A DNA stretch of 43,226 nt from Clostridia bacterium (GTDB taxonomy: Bacteria > Bacillota > Clostridia > Oscillospirales > Butyricicoccaceae): NCBI GenBank assembly GCA_017441945.1, contig JAFSBG010000114.1, positions 1 to 43,226 on the forward strand. The letters are read 5' to 3'. Both the position numbers and the translations under genes were made by a program. Below, one piece after another: positions 21,532-32,435 of this stretch. Position 1 is the stretch's first letter; each line of letters starts with the position of its first letter. Under the pieces are notes generated by a model. That model saw only the letters and a list, made by a program, of their open reading frames with translations, was not told where the DNA came from and made no database searches.

Positions 21532-22464
21532 CTATCGTCTGTGATTTTTGCGGTATTCGAGAGGAGTTTCTCCCATAATATCTTTAAATGCCGACGAAAA
21601 CTTGCTTGCATTGTCATAGCCGAAGCTGCCTGCAATGTCGAGAACAGAAAGCTCGGTGCTTATAAGCTGAACAGCCGCCGCCTGCATTCTCAGCACACGG
21701 ACGTATGAGAAAATCGGCATACCGTAAACACCCTTGAAAGCCTTCTGCAGATGACTCTGAGAGATGTGAAACGTCTCAGCAAGGTCAGCAACGGTGATGC
21801 GGCTGTCAAGATTTTGCGCCAGATATGCCGCCGCCATTTTGGCAACCGAAGCCTGAGTTGACGAAAGGGAAGCAGGAGATGCTTCCTGAGGCTCAATGCC
21901 GCTGAGCACAAGCAGAAGCTCTAAAATCTTCACCTTGAGATAACCCTTTTTGTAGCTCTCAGGTACAGAATAAAGCTCGGAAAAAATATGCTCGATGTAG
22001 CTCTCATTTCGTATGAGAAAAACGCCTTTTTCACCGCAAAGCCTGCGGGCGATTCGCACAGGCTGGACCTCCACATCGTCGAGCAGACAGGAAAAGCATT
22101 TCGGCGCCTTTTCAGGGTCGATAACTATTGATATTCCGTGGTAGTGGGACAGCGGAAAGCTGTAAAGTTCGTTGGGTTTACAACCGTTGGAAATGCTCAG
22201 GTCGCCCGGCATAAGATAGAAAAATCCATCCTCGGTCTGTTGTTCAAGGCGTCCCTCACGGCAATGATGAATGACGATGAGCCTGTCACTGTCAAAGGCA
22301 TCAAGTGGGCAGCACCCTGTGTGAATTGAGTTGTAAATCAGGCGGACACCGGGGAAAACGTCGAAAACATGCCGTTCGCTTTTGCCTGTGCCCGAATGTA
22401 TCGTGTGGACGATACTGCCGTCAGATTGTGTCAAAAATGATGAATTATTGTTATATTTTGTCAT
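21532..22464 (-). CDS. AraC family transcriptional regulator
   Basis: 310 residues. The C-terminal 100 or so form the two-HTH AraC domain: ITVADLAETFHISQSHLQKAFKGV and LSVLDIAGSFGYDNASKFSSAFKDIMGETPLEYR. The N-terminal half is a sensing domain with VIHHCREGRLEQ and MPGDLSISNG, a pattern seen in AraC regulators of siderophore and iron-uptake clusters in Clostridia (PchR-like); ligand not determined. The promoter is on the minus strand at 22596-22568, back to back with that of the sigma-factor gene. A 26-nt palindrome lies in its leader. AGGAAT precedes the ATG. Probable target: flavodoxin downstream, and possibly itself. Confidence 0.93.
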   Translation of the reverse strand: MTKYNNNSSFLTQSDGSIVHTIHSGTGKSERHVFDVFPGVRLIYNSIHTGCCPLDAFDSDRLIVIHHCREGRLEQQTEDGFFYLMPGDLSISNGCKPNELYSFPLSHYHGISIVIDPEKAPKCFSCLLDDVEVQPVRIARRLCGEKGVFLIRNESYIEHIFSELYSVPESYKKGYLKVKILELLLVLSGIEPQEASPASLSSTQASVAKMAAAYLAQNLDSRITVADLAETFHISQSHLQKAFKGVYGMPIFSYVRVLRMQAAAVQLISTELSVLDIAGSFGYDNASKFSSAFKDIMGETPLEYRKNHRR

Positions 22465-22489: not shown

Positions 22490-22515
22490 CATAGGTTAGT
22501 TTAAGCTAACCTATG
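22490..22515. promoter_or_regulatory. perfect inverted repeat before the AraC gene
   Basis: Two 10-bp arms (CATAGGTTAG / CTAACCTATG) separated by TTTAAG. It lies between the AraC promoter and its start codon. Its core TTAGTTTAAGCTAA is shared with the site before flavodoxin. Confidence 0.75.
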
Positions 22516-22604: not shown

Positions 22605-22633
22605 TTGACAGTAAAATTTCTTTGTGCTATAAT
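22605..22633 (+). promoter_or_regulatory. sigma-A promoter of the sigma-factor fusion gene
   Basis: TTGACA at 22605-22610, 17 bp, TATAAT at 22628-22633. Confidence 0.92.
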
Positions 22634-22663
22634 CGAAAACCATAAAAGCAAGGAGGTCTTGCT

Positions 22664-24532
22664 ATGAGCGATAAAGAGATAATCGGTCTGCTTAATTCCG
22701 ACCCTGAAAGGGGCATGGAGCAGATTATAACACAATACGGCAGTCTGCTGTGGGCGGTGGCATCTCATCACATCAGCCAGCCTGAGGACATTAAGGAATG
22801 TGTCAACGACGCATACGCCGAGTTTTTCAGGGCGAAGGATGATTTTGACGAGAGCAAGGGAAGTCTGAAAAACTTCCTCGTCATCATTGCGCAGCGCATT
22901 GCCATTAAAAAATACCACGAAAACATTCGTCAGCCCCAGACAGCGGAGTATATGGATGAAACAGCTGATGACCCGATAACGGATTTTGAGCAGAAGGAGG
23001 ATATCGAAAGATATCTCCATATGCTCGATACTGTGGACGAAAAAATCATCCGCATGAAATACTATGAGGGTATGACAGCAAAGGAAATTGCCGCAACTCT
23101 TGATATACCCTATGAAACTGTAAAGAAGCGCCACCAGCGAAGCCTTAAAAAGCTGCGCAAGTATATGACTCTGGGCATTATTCTTGCAATTCTCGCTGCA
23201 CTTCTCACAGGCTGTGTATGGTTTATTCTCCGTTATTTCGGTATTGTACCGGGCTATGGTATCAACAAAAACCCGGACTTGCCGGCATATATACTGGAGG
23301 AAGATGCATCTGTAAGTTCACATTATGCCGATATCACCTTTACATACGCCTATTGGATGAACAATCAGCTCACTCTCGACTGTGAAATTTGTTTCGATGA
23401 GGAAAAGCTGAAAGAAGGATATTATTCCAAAAACAAATTCTATGGCAAAATGGATGATATTCAGGGCGTGAAGGTCAGCTATTCAGAAGTTTCAGATGAA
23501 CTTGTGTTTTTGGGTTCGATAGACAGAACGCAGGGTACGAATGTCAACGAAGAACGAAGATATATCATTCCGTGTGAGCTGCCTGATGATTTTGATAAAA
23601 AATCCGATACCCTTCCGCTCACCATTTTATGGAAAGACGGCGCACAGCTTGATATCGAGCTGAAAAAGGCTGAAAGTGAAATCTCCTTTGAAAAGGCGGG
23701 CTATTATTCCATGACAGAAGATGAAGGCGGTCTGCTGGCTATGCCAAGAATAGAGGATGGCAATCTTATCGTTGCGGTTTATCCTCTCAGTGAAGGCGAT
23801 TATGTCATTCAGCCATACCTCAGCAAGGGTGTGTGGGACGGAAATGTGCCTGATGACAGCACAATCACAGTCACAGCCGAGGACGGCACTGTGATGGAGG
23901 GCTATGCCGAAGGCTATTCGCCGTTCAGCGGTTACGAATTCTATGAATGGAACTTCGGTCCTGCCCAGCCGGGCAAATACACCCTCAATGTGCCGTTTGT
24001 CTATCAGCAGCTGAAAGAAGACCTTATCGGCCAGAGCATAACACAAAGAGTGTGGTTCGATAATGACGGAGGCACACTTGGTACCGAATACAATGTCCAC
24101 GATGCTGTTGTCCGCCTCACCGATTACAAGGTTTCTGAGCACAGGGAGTATGTGCCTGATATCGATGAGATAACAAAGCTGATAAACGAGCTGTACAGCG
24201 AATGTGTATGGTGGGATGCGGAGTATGAAATCGAAAATAAAAATGAAGACCGCAAGCTTGTGTGGTTCAACCTCAATGCTTCAGATCCGGAAGGTGTCCA
24301 GAGTTTAGAGAAAAAAACAAAGGACGGACAAAGCGCCAATGTGAACGTCTGTCATTGCGATATGCATTGTGAGCATACCACAGACCCTGAAAGCGGAAAG
24401 GAATATTACAAGCCTGAATTCTGCCGATTATATATCTATGGCGGCGAAAACTATGTCGATCTCACATTGAATTATTATTCATTGGGATATCAGTGGAAAC
24501 ATCCCTTTACAATTGAATTTGAGGTGGAATAA
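22664..24532 (+). CDS. membrane-tethered sigma-70-family factor fused to a large outside domain
   Basis: 622 residues. Residues 1-167 are a complete ECF-like sigma factor: region 2 (IITQYGSLLWAVASHHIS, DIKECVNDAYAEFF, GSLKNFLVIIAQRIAIKKY) and region 4 (DEKIIRMKYYEGMTAKEIAA, LDIPYETVKKRHQRSLKKLR). At 168-191 follows one hydrophobic helix, then about 430 residues expected outside the cell, beginning FGIVPGYGINKNPDLPAYIL and continuing as strand-rich segments (QLTLDCEICFDEE, ITVTAEDGTVMEGYAEGYSP). The phrasing of the outside part recalls DUF4179-type domains of sigma/anti-sigma proteins; that is an impression. The factor would be held at the membrane, so release or signalling through the helix is implied. 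AAGGAGG precedes the ATG; the frame is continuous, so this is a true fusion. The next gene is a soluble paralogue of the sigma part. Confidence 0.9.
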   Translation: MSDKEIIGLLNSDPERGMEQIITQYGSLLWAVASHHISQPEDIKECVNDAYAEFFRAKDDFDESKGSLKNFLVIIAQRIAIKKYHENIRQPQTAEYMDETADDPITDFEQKEDIERYLHMLDTVDEKIIRMKYYEGMTAKEIAATLDIPYETVKKRHQRSLKKLRKYMTLGIILAILAALLTGCVWFILRYFGIVPGYGINKNPDLPAYILEEDASVSSHYADITFTYAYWMNNQLTLDCEICFDEEKLKEGYYSKNKFYGKMDDIQGVKVSYSEVSDELVFLGSIDRTQGTNVNEERRYIIPCELPDDFDKKSDTLPLTILWKDGAQLDIELKKAESEISFEKAGYYSMTEDEGGLLAMPRIEDGNLIVAVYPLSEGDYVIQPYLSKGVWDGNVPDDSTITVTAEDGTVMEGYAEGYSPFSGYEFYEWNFGPAQPGKYTLNVPFVYQQLKEDLIGQSITQRVWFDNDGGTLGTEYNVHDAVVRLTDYKVSEHREYVPDIDEITKLINELYSECVWWDAEYEIENKNEDRKLVWFNLNASDPEGVQSLEKKTKDGQSANVNVCHCDMHCEHTTDPESGKEYYKPEFCRLYIYGGENYVDLTLNYYSLGYQWKHPFTIEFEVE

Positions 24533-24534
24533 TC

Positions 24535-24567
24535 AAAAGCGTCTCTGATTTTCAGAGGCGCTTTTTG
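24535..24567 (+). terminator. terminator of the sigma fusion gene
   Basis: AAAAGCGTCTCTGA / TCAGAGGCGCTTTT with a 3-nt loop and T-run; it separates this gene from the next sigma gene. Confidence 0.9.
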
Positions 24568-24601: not shown

Positions 24602-24640
24602 TGTCCCCTTTTTCTCCCAATCACGCAATTAAAATATATA
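24602..24640 (+). promoter_or_regulatory. weaker copy of the putative ECF-type promoter
   Basis: TGTCCCCTTTTT at 24602-24613 and AAAATATATA ending at 24640, about 3 bases further apart than in the copies at 729 and 20572. No sigma-A promoter is evident here. It may allow the sigma factor to activate its own gene. Confidence 0.35.
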
Positions 24641-25223: not shown

Positions 25224-28200
25224 ATGAAAAGAAGAATTTGTAGTTTGCTGATGGCAATCGTAATGGTCATCGGCATGCTGCCAATGCAGGCTTTTGCGGC
25301 GGACAGCTATCAGGTCAAAATCGCATATAATGATGAACTTTGTGATTTCATTGTATATGATATCAATCAGGAAAGTGCAGAAGGCTATGCGATTATTGAA
25401 AATGGTGGATCGGCTATTGCAGTTGATGGATATGCATCTGCGATTTTTGAAATCAAGAATATTGCACAGGGATATCGTATCAAGTCAGTTTCAATGAATG
25501 GCGAAGACTGGTCCGAATCTTTTATTGATGGCGGATATGGCGGTATAGCAAGAAGCTTTGATTCTACATTGGAAATCAGTGTAGAATTGGAAGAAATACC
25601 GTCAGTATTACCTGAAATTACAGGTGTAAATGTTTACGATGGCACCGGAGAAGGCAATCCTCTTACAAGTGTAAACTTTTTGGATGGAAGTACTATTCCA
25701 TACCTTAAATCAAAAGTAACATTTGACACAGAAAGTATTCCTACATATCATGCAGGAACATACTGGTATTATTCATTGGATGGTTCCAACTATAAAAGAA
25801 TAGATAGTTGGGGCTGCAACAATGATTTTAATGTTGGCTGGTCAGGTCACGAAAGTACAGACAACAATCCTGTTATTGACTTCGAAACCTTGCAGGACTA
25901 TTACATCAAGGTGCTTGCAGTCGGTAAAACAGGCTATAGTCAGGCAGATAGCGAAGTGTGGTCTGCACCTATCGAAGTAAATCATACCGACTGTGCTCAT
26001 GAATGGGATGGTGGTGTTGTAAAGAACGAAGTATCTTCCACCGCAGACGGTTCCGTGACATACACCTGCGAAAACTGCGGAGGCACAAAGGTTGAAATCA
26101 TTGCTACAGGTTCAGGTGAGACTGCTGATATGGTGCCTGCTGTCACAAATATCAATACAAGTGACACAAAATTGTATTGGAATGGTATTGATGATAATAG
26201 TGAGATAGAGCATCTTCTGCTTGAATATTCCCAGGATAATGGTGAATCATGGAAGACATTTGGTAAATTCAGACCATCTGACTCAGGTGTTGAATACTGG
26301 AAGACACTTCCTTATGCAGGTCTCCAGGGTACTATATCGTGTTGGAAAGCAACAACTGTTGCTACAGCAGAATCAGGTAAAGAAAACAGCATCTACATGC
26401 AGGATTGGGGTATTACAACAGCTGTATGGAAAGAGGACAGTACAAAGCCAGTTACTGTATCTTATGTAGAAAATGGCGACGCGTATGATATAACTCTTTC
26501 TGGACTGACTAGTGGTAACGAATATATAATCTACAATCAGGCTGAAAAGAACTTTACATCAAACAAGCTGCTTGAGCCGCTTTATGTAAAGGCAACAGGT
26601 GAAACACACATATTTTCCTCAAATACTGTTGATAGTAAGACAAATTACATTGTTTATCAGTATGCTATAACAGGCAATCAGGGATATAGAACATATACAT
26701 TTACAGATGTATCCGGATGGAATGAAATAATCCCTGCAGGTACAGGCTCCGGCGAAACACAGGAAGGCTGTCTCCTGACTTTTCAGTTCCCTGATGAACT
26801 TTGCGATATGTACGCAGTCAAGGCTAATACTGATAACCCTAAATACTATTCGGGTGACAGAGTTGCATCCGGTACATATCTTGCATATGAAATCGTAAAT
26901 ATCGCAGATGGCTACAGAATCAAATCTGTAACTATGAACGATGACGATCGGACGGATGGTTTTGTAAACGGCGGCTACGGTGGGCTCGCTACAACAATTA
27001 CTAAGGACACAACGGTGGTTGTTGAACTTGAAGAAGTTCCTGAAAAATTGCCATCTGTAGAAAATGTTACACTTTACATGGAACATGATTTTACGACACC
27101 TGCTCCTGAAAATGTAACAGTTGATGCTAACACACGTTTCTATGGCAAGGCTACATATAGCGATGGTGTGGAATATCCTATCTACTACATTGGCGGTATA
27201 TGGGAATACTCCACTGACGGCACAACATGGACAAAGGACTATGCGTGGGGCAGCAACCGATATGATTTCTACCCAGGCTGGTCATCACGCGAACAGTTTG
27301 ATCCGGGCAAGGGGGATTTCTTCCTTAATGGCAGCTATGACCTCCGTCTTTGCGTAGAGCCAAAGAATCTTTATACAACAGGTAATAATGTATACTCCAA
27401 TGTAATCCATGTAAACGGCGGTGCAGGCTCAGGCGAAGAGACTGCAAAGGCTACAGCGCCGAAGAATGCCACATGGAACAAGAAATTCTACTATCCATTT
27501 AGCGAAAACAGCTATTTTGATTATACGGGAAGCATTTCCTGGCAGATAGGCGATATGTCCAAAGATCAGAAATTCGCTATCGACGTATATAAGGATGACG
27601 AAGTTATCTGGAGCACAACTTATAACTGGTATGCATCTTCAGCGCGTGAATATGTTTCCAGCCATGACTTTGCTCTCAGCGAACTGGAAAACAAAGAAAA
27701 TGGCGAATATTATTTCACAGTCCAGACTCTCGGTGATGACACAACTGAAGCAAGTGACATTGTAAAATCCGAAGTACTGGATTTCACAAAGGCAGAAAAT
27801 AAGCTTGCCGCTCCATCTGACCTTAGCTGGACAGATACTGTTGTTGCAAACTGGAATGAAGTCGAAAATGCGGGTGGTTACCATATTCAGGCTTTCTATT
27901 CAGAAGACAATGGCAGTGCTACAAGCACAGACGATATGACACTGGTAGCTAACTATGTAAGCTATACAAAGCAGGACAGCAACTATACAAGCTTTGATGT
28001 ATACAGCTGGATGAGCCAGAACAACAGACCTGACGGTTACTATTACTTCAAGGTGAAGAGTGTAACAACCGATGCGGAAACTGTTCTTTCTTCCGACTGG
28101 TCTGCTCTCAGCCCTGTTTATGCAAAGGGTGTAACTCCTGAAGAAGGAAAGTTTGCAGCTCCTACAGAACTTACATGGGGCAAGGTATGGACAAACGATG

Positions 28201-31200
28201 ATACTGAAACATACGATTATCCTGGCGCAATTTCCTTCAAGGAAAACGCAGCTGATATGCAGTACGAGCCATGGTATACAATTTCTGTTTACAAGAAGGG
28301 TGAAACAGATACTCTTGTAAGAGAATTCGGCTGGTATTCAGGCTCGAATAATGCAAATGAACCATATTTCGTCTTAACAGACTTTATTAACACTTATGGC
28401 AATAATCTCGAATCTGGTCAGTATTATTTTACAGTACAGGCTTGTCCTAACGATACCGATACAACTTCCATAGCAAGTGATGTTGCAACATCAGGTATCT
28501 GGGATTATACAAGACCGGATGCACAGATTGAAACACCTACAGGCCTTGCCTGGAAGACTGATGCAGACGGCAATCCTGTAGCAACATGGACACCAATTGA
28601 TGATGAAAATCTTGGCGGTGGCTCTGTTGAAGTATGGTACTCTGAAACAGACGGCGAAGATGCAAGCTGGAAACGCGTCGGTGCAACAGGCTGGAGTGGT
28701 GAAGAGAGCTCCGAATATAATGGCGAGTTCCCTATTTTCCCATATCATCAGCATTTGATGACTAAGTATGGCAACGGTTACTATTACTTTATCGTACAGG
28801 CTGAATCTGCCAACGTGGAAAAAGCTCGTCATTCAGAAGAATCCGAAGCTAGCCTAATTCTGGCTTACGGTGTAACTCCTGAAGAACCTGAAAATACAGT
28901 TCCTGCAGTTGCAGAGGCATTCTTCTCCAATGGCGGTCTTCGTGTGGTTTACAGATACGCAGAAAACACAGAAGAAGCTTTTGAAAATGCAGATTATGTC
29001 AAGGCTGAAATATCCACAGATGGTGAAAATTGGGTAACCATTATGGATAACATGGGCATTGTAACTGATGGTGGTAACGGCAATTTCTACACAACTTATA
29101 ATTCCATTCAGCACAGTGTTCCTGCTGGACATTATACAAAGCTTCGCTTTACAACAGTTGCAAAAAGCGGTTATACAGATGCGGTAAGCAACTTCGATTT
29201 TGACCTTACTATCAATCGTGAAACAGATGAAAACGCACCTGCAAAGATTACAAGTATCACTCAGGAAGAAGGAAGTGATACATACACAGTAAAGCTGACA
29301 GGTCTTGCAGGCAAGCCGGACGGCGTGATCATGATTGATGAAAACGAAGATCTTCTTTACTGCAACCAGTATATTTACTTCAGCGAGTATAAGTTCGATG
29401 GCGATACTGCAGATTCAATAGCAACATTGGATGCTGAGTATATAAATGATCTTACAGAAGACAGCAAGTACATTGTGTTCACAATTTCTCAGGATGTTCA
29501 GACAACTGATACTGATTCCGAGCTTGCTTTTGATGCTACAACAGCTTCTGTCACATTGACTGATGTATCCGGCTGGAAGCCATGCTTTACAAAGTGTGAA
29601 CATCAGTGGAATGAGGGCGAAGTTACAACAGAGGCAACTTGCGGAGAGGCTGGCGTAAAGACATTTACATGTACACTTTGCGGAGAAACAAAGACAGATG
29701 TCATCTCTGCAACAGGCAACCACAGCTATAATGACGGCGAAGTTACAACAGAGGCAACTTGCTGTGAAGAAGGTGTAAAGACATATACATGTACTGTCTG
29801 CGGCGCAACAAAGACAGAATCTGTTCCTGCAACAAATGAGCATGAATGGAGCGATGCATACTCAAAGAATGATAAGCAGCACTGGTTCAAGTGCACAAAT
29901 CCTGAATGTACAGCTACTAATGAAGTTGAAAATCATTCTTCTGACAACAAGATTTGTGACGTTGACAGCGTTTGTGAATGTGGCTATATCGTAAAATATG
30001 CCGGTGAGCATACATTCCCAACAGAATGGCAGACAAACGAAACACATCATTGGAAGGAATGTACAGTTGATGGCTGCACAGGCAAGGAAGAAGCAGAACA
30101 TACTGTTGTAATTGACGAAGCTGTTCCACCAACAGAAACAACTGAAGGTAAGACAGAAGGTTCACACTGTGAAATCTGTGGCTACGTAATCAAGGCTCAG
30201 ACAAACATTCCTGCTCTTACAGCACAGGATGTTTACTGGTTCCCTGATGAATCCATTACAATCACATACGGTGAATTCAAGTCTGTACAGAACTCCGCAT
30301 ACAACAATTCTGAGGATGGCGCTGAACTCACATACTCTTCTTCCGATGAATCTGTTGCAACTGTCGATGCAAACGGCAAGGCAACTATTGTAGGCGCAGG
30401 CGAATGTGAAATTATCGCAACTGCCCCTGCAGTTCCTGGCAAGTACATCGAAACATCTGCAAGCTATAAGCTCATCGTAAATAAGGCTCCGCTTACAATC
30501 AAGGCAAATGACAAGGCTATTATTTATGGCGAAGTTCCTGCAAATGCCGGCTGGACAGCAACAGGCCTTATCGATGGCGAAACTGCTGACGTTGTAAAGG
30601 GCACAGCGGTTTATGCTTATAACTATGAACAGTTTGGCAAGGCTGGCACTTATGAAATCAGCGTTTCCGGCCTTACAGCAGATAATTACGAAATTACATT
30701 TGAAAAGGGTGCTCTTACAGTAAATAAGGCATCTGATTACACAATCACACTGGGCAACCTCGAACAGCTCGATAAGGAAGTTACAGCTGTTACAGCAGCT
30801 ATTGCTCCACAGGATGCAACTGCGGTTATCAAGGTTGAATACAAGATTGGTGAAGAATGGGTTGAAACACTCACTGAAACTCTTGCAGCAGGCGAATACG
30901 AAGTCCGCGCTTCTCTCGTTTCCTCCGATAATATCGCAGTAAATGATGCATACACAACAGCAACTCTCGTTGTAAACCGCAGCATTGTTGTAGGCGATAC
31001 AAATATCGAAGTAAATGTTGAAGGTGAAAAGGCTGAAATCGTTGTAACACCTGAAGAACTCGATGAAATCATCGAAAATACAGAGGGTGAAGTCACTGTT
31101 GAACTCGGCGGCGTCAAGGACGTTACAGAACTTGAAATCCCTGGCGACTTTGTCGATGCCATCAGCAAGAGCGAAAAGACAGATGGTCTTGTTATCAACA

Positions 31201-32435
31201 CAGAAGATTCTTCCATCAGCATGAGCGAAGCAGTTGTCGATACAGTTGCTGAAAACGTAAAGAGCGGCGAAGATACTATCGCTGTAAAGCTTGAAGCTAT
31301 CGAAAAGAATGAACTTAACGAAAAGCAGCAGGCGGCTCTTGATGCTATCACTCAGGATGCAGTTATCGTTGAAGTTTCCCTCGTTATCACTCACGCAGAC
31401 GGTACTGAAACAGAACTCCATCAGCTTGGCGGCAATGTTGAAGTTACAGTGCCTTATGAAGGTGAAGTTCCTGAAGGAAAGTACATCGTTGTAAGCTATG
31501 TTTCCGATGACGGTAACGTATCCTATGTACGTGCAACTTACAATGCTGAAACAAAGCAGGTTACATTCAAGACAAATCACTTCTCCAACTACGCAATCTT
31601 TGTAAGCGGTAGCCCATCTGTTGTTGTAAATGAAGGTACAGGAGGTGGCATCTACGAAGTAGGCACAACTGTAACTATCAAGGCAGATGAAAAGTCCGGC
31701 TACACATTTGCAGGCTGGGAAGTAAATGTTGGCACAGTAACACTTGCAGATGCAAATAAGGCTGAAACTACATTTGCAATGCCATCTGAAAATGTTGAAG
31801 TAACTGCAACATATCGCAAGAATGTACCAAGCGGCGGTGGCGGAGGCTCTATGGCTCCATCCAAGCCTGCAGTTCCTGAATATGTAAATCCATTTACAGA
31901 TGTAAAGGAAGGCGACTACTTCTTTGACGCAGTAAAGTGGGCTGTTGAAAACGGCGTCACAACAGGCACAACTGAAACAACATTCTCCCCTGATATGGAA
32001 TGCACACGCGCACAGGCTGTAACATTCCTTTATCGTGCAGCGGGCTCTCCTGCTGTAAAGGGCGATATGCCATTTGCTGACATAGCAGAAGATGCATACT
32101 ATTATGATGCAGTTCTCTGGGCAGTAAATAACGGCATCACAAAGGGCGTTTCCGAAACAGAATTTGCTCCGGATGAAGTTTGCACACGCGAACAGATCGT
32201 CACATTCCTCTATCGCACAGCAGTAAGCCTTGGCAAGGATGTTTCTGTAGGCGAAGACACAAATATCCTCTCCTATGACGACGCTTTTGATATAGGCGAA
32301 TGGGCAATCCCTGCTATGCAGTGGGCAGTCGGCGAAGGCGTTATGACAGGTACAAGCGAAAGCACACTTTCTCCAAAGATGGTTTGCACACGCGCTCAGA
32401 TCGTAACATTCCTCGCAAGAGCATTCGGCGAATAG
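25224..32435 (+). CDS. giant S-layer-homology surface protein
   Basis: 2403 residues. Signal peptide ending MQAFAA (about residue 26). Residues about 28-245 and 515-740 are two copies of one module (DELCDFIVYD../DELCDMYAVK.., GYRIKSVSMN/GYRIKSVTMN, GGYGGIA/GGYGGLA, VGWSGHES/PGWSSREQ). Several fibronectin-like segments (SDLSWTDT, PTELTWGKV, TGLAWKTD) follow. Cysteine-pair modules (CAHEW..CENCG near 257; CEHQW..CTLCGETK and its repeats about 1458-1550) look like small metal or disulfide knots. Then a Big_2-like domain (SSSDESVATVDANGKATI), an MBG-like domain from about 1753, an InlB-like repeat (GYTFAGWEV) near 2140-2195, a Gly-rich linker, and three SLH domains (2222 to the end) that bind the cell wall polymer. 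Function is probably adhesion or matrix; it follows the sigma gene at 24654. Confidence 0.95.
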   Translation: MKRRICSLLMAIVMVIGMLPMQAFAADSYQVKIAYNDELCDFIVYDINQESAEGYAIIENGGSAIAVDGYASAIFEIKNIAQGYRIKSVSMNGEDWSESFIDGGYGGIARSFDSTLEISVELEEIPSVLPEITGVNVYDGTGEGNPLTSVNFLDGSTIPYLKSKVTFDTESIPTYHAGTYWYYSLDGSNYKRIDSWGCNNDFNVGWSGHESTDNNPVIDFETLQDYYIKVLAVGKTGYSQADSEVWSAPIEVNHTDCAHEWDGGVVKNEVSSTADGSVTYTCENCGGTKVEIIATGSGETADMVPAVTNINTSDTKLYWNGIDDNSEIEHLLLEYSQDNGESWKTFGKFRPSDSGVEYWKTLPYAGLQGTISCWKATTVATAESGKENSIYMQDWGITTAVWKEDSTKPVTVSYVENGDAYDITLSGLTSGNEYIIYNQAEKNFTSNKLLEPLYVKATGETHIFSSNTVDSKTNYIVYQYAITGNQGYRTYTFTDVSGWNEIIPAGTGSGETQEGCLLTFQFPDELCDMYAVKANTDNPKYYSGDRVASGTYLAYEIVNIADGYRIKSVTMNDDDRTDGFVNGGYGGLATTITKDTTVVVELEEVPEKLPSVENVTLYMEHDFTTPAPENVTVDANTRFYGKATYSDGVEYPIYYIGGIWEYSTDGTTWTKDYAWGSNRYDFYPGWSSREQFDPGKGDFFLNGSYDLRLCVEPKNLYTTGNNVYSNVIHVNGGAGSGEETAKATAPKNATWNKKFYYPFSENSYFDYTGSISWQIGDMSKDQKFAIDVYKDDEVIWSTTYNWYASSAREYVSSHDFALSELENKENGEYYFTVQTLGDDTTEASDIVKSEVLDFTKAENKLAAPSDLSWTDTVVANWNEVENAGGYHIQAFYSEDNGSATSTDDMTLVANYVSYTKQDSNYTSFDVYSWMSQNNRPDGYYYFKVKSVTTDAETVLSSDWSALSPVYAKGVTPEEGKFAAPTELTWGKVWTNDDTETYDYPGAISFKENAADMQYEPWYTISVYKKGETDTLVREFGWYSGSNNANEPYFVLTDFINTYGNNLESGQYYFTVQACPNDTDTTSIASDVATSGIWDYTRPDAQIETPTGLAWKTDADGNPVATWTPIDDENLGGGSVEVWYSETDGEDASWKRVGATGWSGEESSEYNGEFPIFPYHQHLMTKYGNGYYYFIVQAESANVEKARHSEESEASLILAYGVTPEEPENTVPAVAEAFFSNGGLRVVYRYAENTEEAFENADYVKAEISTDGENWVTIMDNMGIVTDGGNGNFYTTYNSIQHSVPAGHYTKLRFTTVAKSGYTDAVSNFDFDLTINRETDENAPAKITSITQEEGSDTYTVKLTGLAGKPDGVIMIDENEDLLYCNQYIYFSEYKFDGDTADSIATLDAEYINDLTEDSKYIVFTISQDVQTTDTDSELAFDATTASVTLTDVSGWKPCFTKCEHQWNEGEVTTEATCGEAGVKTFTCTLCGETKTDVISATGNHSYNDGEVTTEATCCEEGVKTYTCTVCGATKTESVPATNEHEWSDAYSKNDKQHWFKCTNPECTATNEVENHSSDNKICDVDSVCECGYIVKYAGEHTFPTEWQTNETHHWKECTVDGCTGKEEAEHTVVIDEAVPPTETTEGKTEGSHCEICGYVIKAQTNIPALTAQDVYWFPDESITITYGEFKSVQNSAYNNSEDGAELTYSSSDESVATVDANGKATIVGAGECEIIATAPAVPGKYIETSASYKLIVNKAPLTIKANDKAIIYGEVPANAGWTATGLIDGETADVVKGTAVYAYNYEQFGKAGTYEISVSGLTADNYEITFEKGALTVNKASDYTITLGNLEQLDKEVTAVTAAIAPQDATAVIKVEYKIGEEWVETLTETLAAGEYEVRASLVSSDNIAVNDAYTTATLVVNRSIVVGDTNIEVNVEGEKAEIVVTPEELDEIIENTEGEVTVELGGVKDVTELEIPGDFVDAISKSEKTDGLVINTEDSSISMSEAVVDTVAENVKSGEDTIAVKLEAIEKNELNEKQQAALDAITQDAVIVEVSLVITHADGTETELHQLGGNVEVTVPYEGEVPEGKYIVVSYVSDDGNVSYVRATYNAETKQVTFKTNHFSNYAIFVSGSPSVVVNEGTGGGIYEVGTTVTIKADEKSGYTFAGWEVNVGTVTLADANKAETTFAMPSENVEVTATYRKNVPSGGGGGSMAPSKPAVPEYVNPFTDVKEGDYFFDAVKWAVENGVTTGTTETTFSPDMECTRAQAVTFLYRAAGSPAVKGDMPFADIAEDAYYYDAVLWAVNNGITKGVSETEFAPDEVCTREQIVTFLYRTAVSLGKDVSVGEDTNILSYDDAFDIGEWAIPAMQWAVGEGVMTGTSESTLSPKMVCTRAQIVTFLARAFGE

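Follow-up and report, generated by a model that had tools for sequence, protein, structure and literature searches.

ECF-type sigma factors are normally held by a separate inhibitor. The locus described here raises the question of how such a factor would be controlled when it is itself a membrane protein. In the window, the whole 43,226-nucleotide stretch of Clostridia DNA (Butyricicoccaceae, contig JAFSBG010000114.1) that was analysed, one open frame of 622 amino acids (22664..24532; this and all other features lie on the forward strand unless stated) encodes an ECF sigma factor, a membrane helix and an ectodomain. The initial annotation had read a region 2/region 4 sigma factor (residues 1-167), a membrane helix and some 430 outside residues in a single frame, and the ORF, Pfam and TIGR02937 matches and hydropathy all agree with it. 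Sigma region 2 occupies residues 22-83 (22727..22912; PF04542, Sigma70_r2, 4.2e-7) and sigma region 4 residues 112-166 (22997..23161; PF08281/PF04545), with Sigma70_r4_2 at residues 112-164 (1.1e-11); both Pfam matches are above cut-off. TIGR02937 (sigma70-ECF) matches residues 18-168 with 82 bits against a cut-off of 42.9, and with regions 2 and 4 within about 170 residues and above curated cut-offs the protein belongs to the ECF sigma-70 factors.

The protein has a single strong hydrophobic segment that starts at about residue 168, with the best 19-residue hydropathy window (2.6) at 170-171. The membrane helix had been placed at residues 168-191 (23165..23236); its start stands, but its core lies nearer 168-184, and residues 185-196 look hydrophobic or amphipathic and are better described as juxtamembrane. 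The helix appears continuous with the last helix of region 4, forming one helix from residue 150 to 191 that runs from sigma4 into the membrane in a low-confidence full-length model (4 rows, mean pLDDT 59) on which no fold claims were based. Pfam gave no match to a zinc-finger anti-sigma domain where sigma4 adjoins the membrane helix, the 15 fused copies described below have no intervening residues there, and the idea of an ancestral anti-sigma domain hidden at this point was rejected. At the membrane exit lies a lipobox-like sequence, L181-T-G-C184 (23204..23215), a candidate site-1 cleavage point. It is followed by a hydrophobic juxtamembrane segment, VWFILRYFGIVPGYGIN (23216..23266), which we propose, by analogy with RsiV (PMC6066255), as the counterpart of the DUF4179 amphipathic helix. 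The outside part of about 430 residues ends in a long beta-rich tail, the predicted ectodomain (residues 202-622; 23267..24529).

A frame of this kind might be produced by a sequencing or assembly error that joins two genes, a reading for which the existence of split relatives is the sole support. We identified 15 fused copies, the window included, in 13 Clostridia genomes, and since all of them read open through the junction on independent contigs, a join error is ruled out and its probability is negligible. The copies come from the same family as the window (G058, MAG RGIG1902 from goat caecum, and G070), from further families within the order (G923, G947, G992, G1156 and two in G1180) and from Lachnospiraceae-type genomes (L016, Faecalicatena contorta L017, G637, G713 and two in G705). 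Every one has both sigma regions and the helix directly after sigma4, with 0 residues between, and in region 4 the sequence YETVKKR is invariant and HQRS nearly so. At the thresholds used, and counting the window genome, 6 of 394 genomes were positive in the search of the order, 3 of 391 in that of the class (two of the three in split form) and 2 of 398 in that of the phylum (one of the two split), so that the family is sparse at class and phylum level. Longer fused members of 843-852 amino acids (L056, L057, L058 and L059) contain part of the ectodomain twice.

The initial annotation had also envisaged that the orthologues might always be two separate proteins. This is not so: two-gene versions occur in distant Bacillota, where they show the origin of the fusion and do not refute it. 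In G286, G327, G477 and G1569, two overlapping or abutting genes encode a sigma factor of 187-202 amino acids and a membrane anti-sigma protein of 458-489 amino acids, the latter composed of a cytoplasmic N-terminal stretch, which the fused protein lacks, a single helix and an ectodomain. The ectodomains of both forms share an IPGYGI motif, and a comparison of their profiles gave 97.7% probability (E 2.5e-12, 303 columns). Because the split pair has this cytoplasmic stretch and matching ectodomains, the fused form looks like a sigma/anti-sigma pair that has lost the cytoplasmic anti-sigma domain. In the sigma tree, the fused proteins and the soluble paralogues discussed below form one clade (98/98) apart from the split and other ECF factors, with the soluble proteins in a clade of their own (98/95). 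Genome G705 holds a third sigma copy (L040, 13702-14343) that stops where the helix would begin, a natural tail-less version; it groups with the two fused copies of the same genome (100/99) and is likely a secondary loss.

Domain search and structure prediction, both suggested in the initial annotation for the outside part, gave unequal returns. There was no usable match to the ectodomain in Pfam, NCBIfam or PADLOC, and a PDB sequence search with the ectodomain profile yielded a chance hit only. Among the nine fused members scanned, neither the DUF4179 profile (PF13786) nor a FecR-like ectodomain was matched, and the DUF4179 profile matched one split relative weakly (0.015). The AlphaFold2 model of residues 185-622 (4 rows, mean pLDDT 69.7), used with caution, is nearly all beta. 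Foldseek ranked 3FBQ first among its matches (E 4.6e-4, with no other hit below 1e-3), the ectodomain of BAS1627, a DUF4179-type anti-sigma factor of Bacillus anthracis (PMC6066255). Because the TM-scores of this match are low (0.15/0.21), with a Z attainable by a common beta arrangement, the modelled fold supports, but does not prove, kinship with DUF4179-type ectodomains. In the VIA-align rows, Ig-like beta matches of a common kind and of middling Z predominated.

At the helix exit, a Cys is found in 14 of the 15 fused copies and is preceded by Gly or Ala in 13 of these 14, the lipobox-like variants being LAAC, LTGC, LVGC, LVAC, ITAC and ASAC. The window sequence, LTGC, agrees with the pattern [LVI][ASTVI][GAS]C and is preceded by a basic n-region and a hydrophobic stretch, at an internal and not an N-terminal position. 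The exceptions are G637, with Phe before Cys, and G992, with Arg for Cys; the latter fused gene (L058) reads LAAR while its close relative G947 has LAAC. The motif is absent from the split relatives. The residues that follow the Cys are unusually hydrophobic for a lipoprotein, and the juxtamembrane segment is strongly conserved, ending in PGYG in most members. RsiV has its signal peptidase site within a membrane-embedded amphipathic juxtamembrane helix that shields it until lysozyme binds, after which RasP acts (PMC6066255); a signal peptidase likewise cleaves RsiP (PMC8844934). The window genome encodes M50 proteases. LspA was not found in its 92%-complete MAG and is present in both same-genus relatives. 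A bolder proposal, possible though doubtful, is that a lipoprotein signal peptide here has the sigma factor at its cytoplasmic end. Site 1 would then be cut, under regulation, by Lgt and LspA, with a lipidated sensor remaining outside and a stump that bears the sigma factor passing to a site-2 protease. The papers that we searched described no release of a sigma factor from a lipoprotein precursor, no lipobox-bearing sigma or anti-sigma factor and no IutY-like sigma factor in Bacillota.

The fused gene is preceded by a consensus sigmaA promoter, TTGACA-N17-TATAAT with TG before the -10 (22605..22633; 12/12 match), and by a Shine-Dalgarno sequence read as AAGGAGG, 7 nt before the ATG (22650..22656). 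A hairpin resembling an intrinsic terminator would end its transcript (24535..24565; -19.9 kcal/mol, z -4.3). On the other strand, a divergent gene for an AraC-family regulator (21532-22464) adjoins the fused gene, an arrangement kept in the congener G070 (L044, 4537-5469), and an inverted repeat, ATAGGTTAG-TTTAAG-CTAACCTAT, between the two genes (about 22490-22515) is a possible operator. Upstream of Lachnospiraceae-type fused genes (L016, L017, L038 and L039), a GGTTAAWWTTWACC-like repeat covers a sigmaA-like promoter and might be a repressor site.

Comparison of the regions downstream of the fused genes revealed a promoter-like element, TGTCCCC-N15/16-GC[G/A]A[A/T]T, with GCAATT or GCGAAT as the -10 half. 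In the window its form is TGTCCCC-N16-GCAATT (24602..24630), a putative cognate ECF promoter. Within 300 nt after the fused stop, the motif occurs exactly in 9 of 15 loci and with one mismatch in 11 of 15, against 0.02% and 0.9% of shuffled regions, the scoring having been made on the loci from which the motif was derived. In 466 kb of strand-bases there were nine strict hits, all at these downstream sites; the motif is absent downstream of G713, of both G705 copies (G705a and G705b) and of G1180b. The genes that follow it are diverse: a soluble sigma factor in the window, G058, G070 and G923, an SLH or related surface protein in G947, G992 and G1156, a companion of 309-329 amino acids in L016, L017 and G637, and a lipoprotein in G1180a. 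Companion proteins of about 310-330 amino acids after the fused gene (L016, 7002-7931; L017, 7100-8056; L039, 4465-5454) had no confident family match. A wide regulon was considered and rejected, as strict matches in the window's own genome were limited to the site in the window plus a single weak one, and a reversed-pattern control gave at least as many (3).

The soluble ECF sigma paralogue noticed in the initial annotation does lie beside the fused gene (GTG 24645 or ATG 24654, 24645/24654-25160, by domain calls; 39% identical over residues 1-168). Its adjacency, which had been taken as notable context, recurs in only 4 of the 15 loci, and the conserved promoter-like element proved more informative. 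Of the 11 fused loci that have no soluble-clade neighbour, seven still show the motif, in front of some other gene, and the fused sigma therefore appears the better candidate as user of the element; in the window itself, the promoter could in reality serve the soluble paralogue. Next in the window is a gene for a 2,403-amino-acid secreted surface protein with SLH, Big_2 and MBG_2 domains (25224..32435; domain calls, homology), the likely output gene. This protein is homologous to the surface proteins of G1156 (47% over 251 amino acids) and of G070, and the fused module probably controls large proteins of this S-layer type.

Taken together, these features suggest a one-protein surface-signalling switch, with a tethered and silent sigma factor, a signal-triggered two-step proteolytic release and activation of a neighbouring promoter, a scheme that we regard as reasonably probable. 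The sigma factor would be made constitutively from its consensus housekeeping promoter, and the protein would insert with its N-terminus inside and its C-terminus outside. The sequences themselves show the fusion and its conservation, its kinship with a split pair, sigma4 abutting the helix, where the motif lies and that M50 proteases are encoded; what follows insertion, namely silence by tethering, cleavage by signal peptidase and site-2 protease, promoter use and relay, we infer at every step. The sigma factor would be silent because sigma4 runs straight into the helix, with the tether in place of the anti-sigma domain that the fusion discarded. A signal acting on the beta-rich ectodomain would lift the juxtamembrane segment and expose a cleavage site at the helix exit. 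There a signal peptidase would make the site-1 cut, type II at LTG|C being favoured because the exit Cys is conserved and type I, a few residues away, being the alternative. An M50-family site-2 protease would then cut the stump and free the sigma domain, which would use the element just downstream of its own gene. In the window this would switch on the soluble sigma as a relay or amplifier and probably also the giant SLH protein. The initial annotation had foreseen either proteolytic release or action on membrane-near DNA, and of these release is the most likely: an anti-sigma domain would find no space where sigma4 meets the helix, and in IutY, which is laid out alike, Prc and then RseP bring about activation (PMC5411451, PMC9249621).

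Other modes of action deserve to be weighed against this scheme. Some regulators, such as ToxR and CadC, work from within the membrane, and a ligand might similarly change the pose of the fused sigma factor so that RNA polymerase is recruited to the neighbouring promoter without any release. Such a mechanism needs no anti-sigma domain, and it suits a regulator of nearby DNA, the sole convincing strict target site in the genome adjoining the gene. We nevertheless think it unlikely, as it leaves the conserved Cys motif unexplained, the recognition helix enters the membrane without a linker in the low-confidence model, and in the IutY and RsiV/RsiP systems it is proteolysis that brings activation (PMC5411451, PMC6066255, PMC8844934).

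The same Cys motif invites a different reading, in which the site is processed constitutively at biogenesis, the sigma factor is always freed and the ectodomain is an ordinary lipoprotein, so that output would be coupled to secretion or lipoprotein processing and not to a ligand. Most copies do combine a lipobox-like motif, a basic n-region and a hydrophobic stretch. The juxtamembrane segment is, however, strongly conserved, and in RsiV a segment of this kind guards against cleavage; moreover G992 has no Cys and LspA was not found in the 92%-complete window genome, and we consider this reading rather improbable. It is very improbable that the fused protein is mainly a receptor controlling the soluble paralogue, its own sigma domain being a decoy. 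Adjacency of the two genes is conserved in the window, G058, G070 and G923, but the high conservation of region 4 and the loci in which the motif stands before another gene, with no soluble-clade neighbour, argue against it. Regulated proteolytic release remains the reading that we prefer. With the fused sigma, whether tethering alone can keep a sigma factor off becomes directly testable, and the gene offers a compact sensor-to-promoter module in one protein. Split relatives of the family can be traced, the protein contains its own candidate cleavage site, and the predicted target promoter lies alongside.

Several known systems resemble the fused protein in part. The initial annotation was right that C-terminal extensions are known in some ECF groups, as in IutY and the Actinobacterial ECF48/52/53 (PMC8999054), but the size and layout seen here are not themselves new, IutY having the same layout. 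Clostridial ECF sigma factors with regulatory extensions are also listed, namely ECF262 (Ruminococcus albus) and ECF288 (Blautia producta), the latter suggested to be CorE-like with a Cys-rich extension (PMC8999054); our family, compared with these groups by description only, may coincide with one of them. ECF48, ECF52 and ECF53, for example SCO4117 of Streptomyces coelicolor, likewise have a C-terminal membrane region and an outside domain, and proteolytic activation has been proposed for them (PMC5826349, PMC8999054), but in them a zinc-finger anti-sigma domain separates sigma4 from the membrane, whereas here there are 0 residues between. RsiV and BAS1627, DUF4179 anti-sigma factors (PMC6066255), share with the fused protein a membrane helix, a juxtamembrane helix, a beta ectodomain and their occurrence in Bacillota. 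They are, however, separate inhibitors with a cytoplasmic sigma-binding part, whereas here the sigma factor itself is the membrane protein and sigma4 abuts the helix. As working precedent we take IutY of Pseudomonas putida (ECF243), which was termed unique in its papers (PMC5411451, PMC9249621) and which also joins an ECF sigma factor, one helix directly after sigma4 and an anti-sigma-derived C-terminal ectodomain in one polypeptide. Its two-step proteolysis ends in a site-2 protease, and a comparable release is predicted here, where the window genome encodes M50 proteases. The ectodomain of IutY is FecR-like, and in its Gram-negative host IutY responds to a siderophore receptor of the outer membrane, whereas the fused protein belongs to Bacillota and has no FecR match, a lipobox-like exit site, a different ectodomain and an SLH surface protein as its predicted output. 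Since relatives keep both the fusion and a matching promoter-like site beside the gene, the protein probably works alone as a surface-signalling device that proteases set free, and is apparently a Gram-positive, independent counterpart of IutY in several bacterial families of gut Clostridia.
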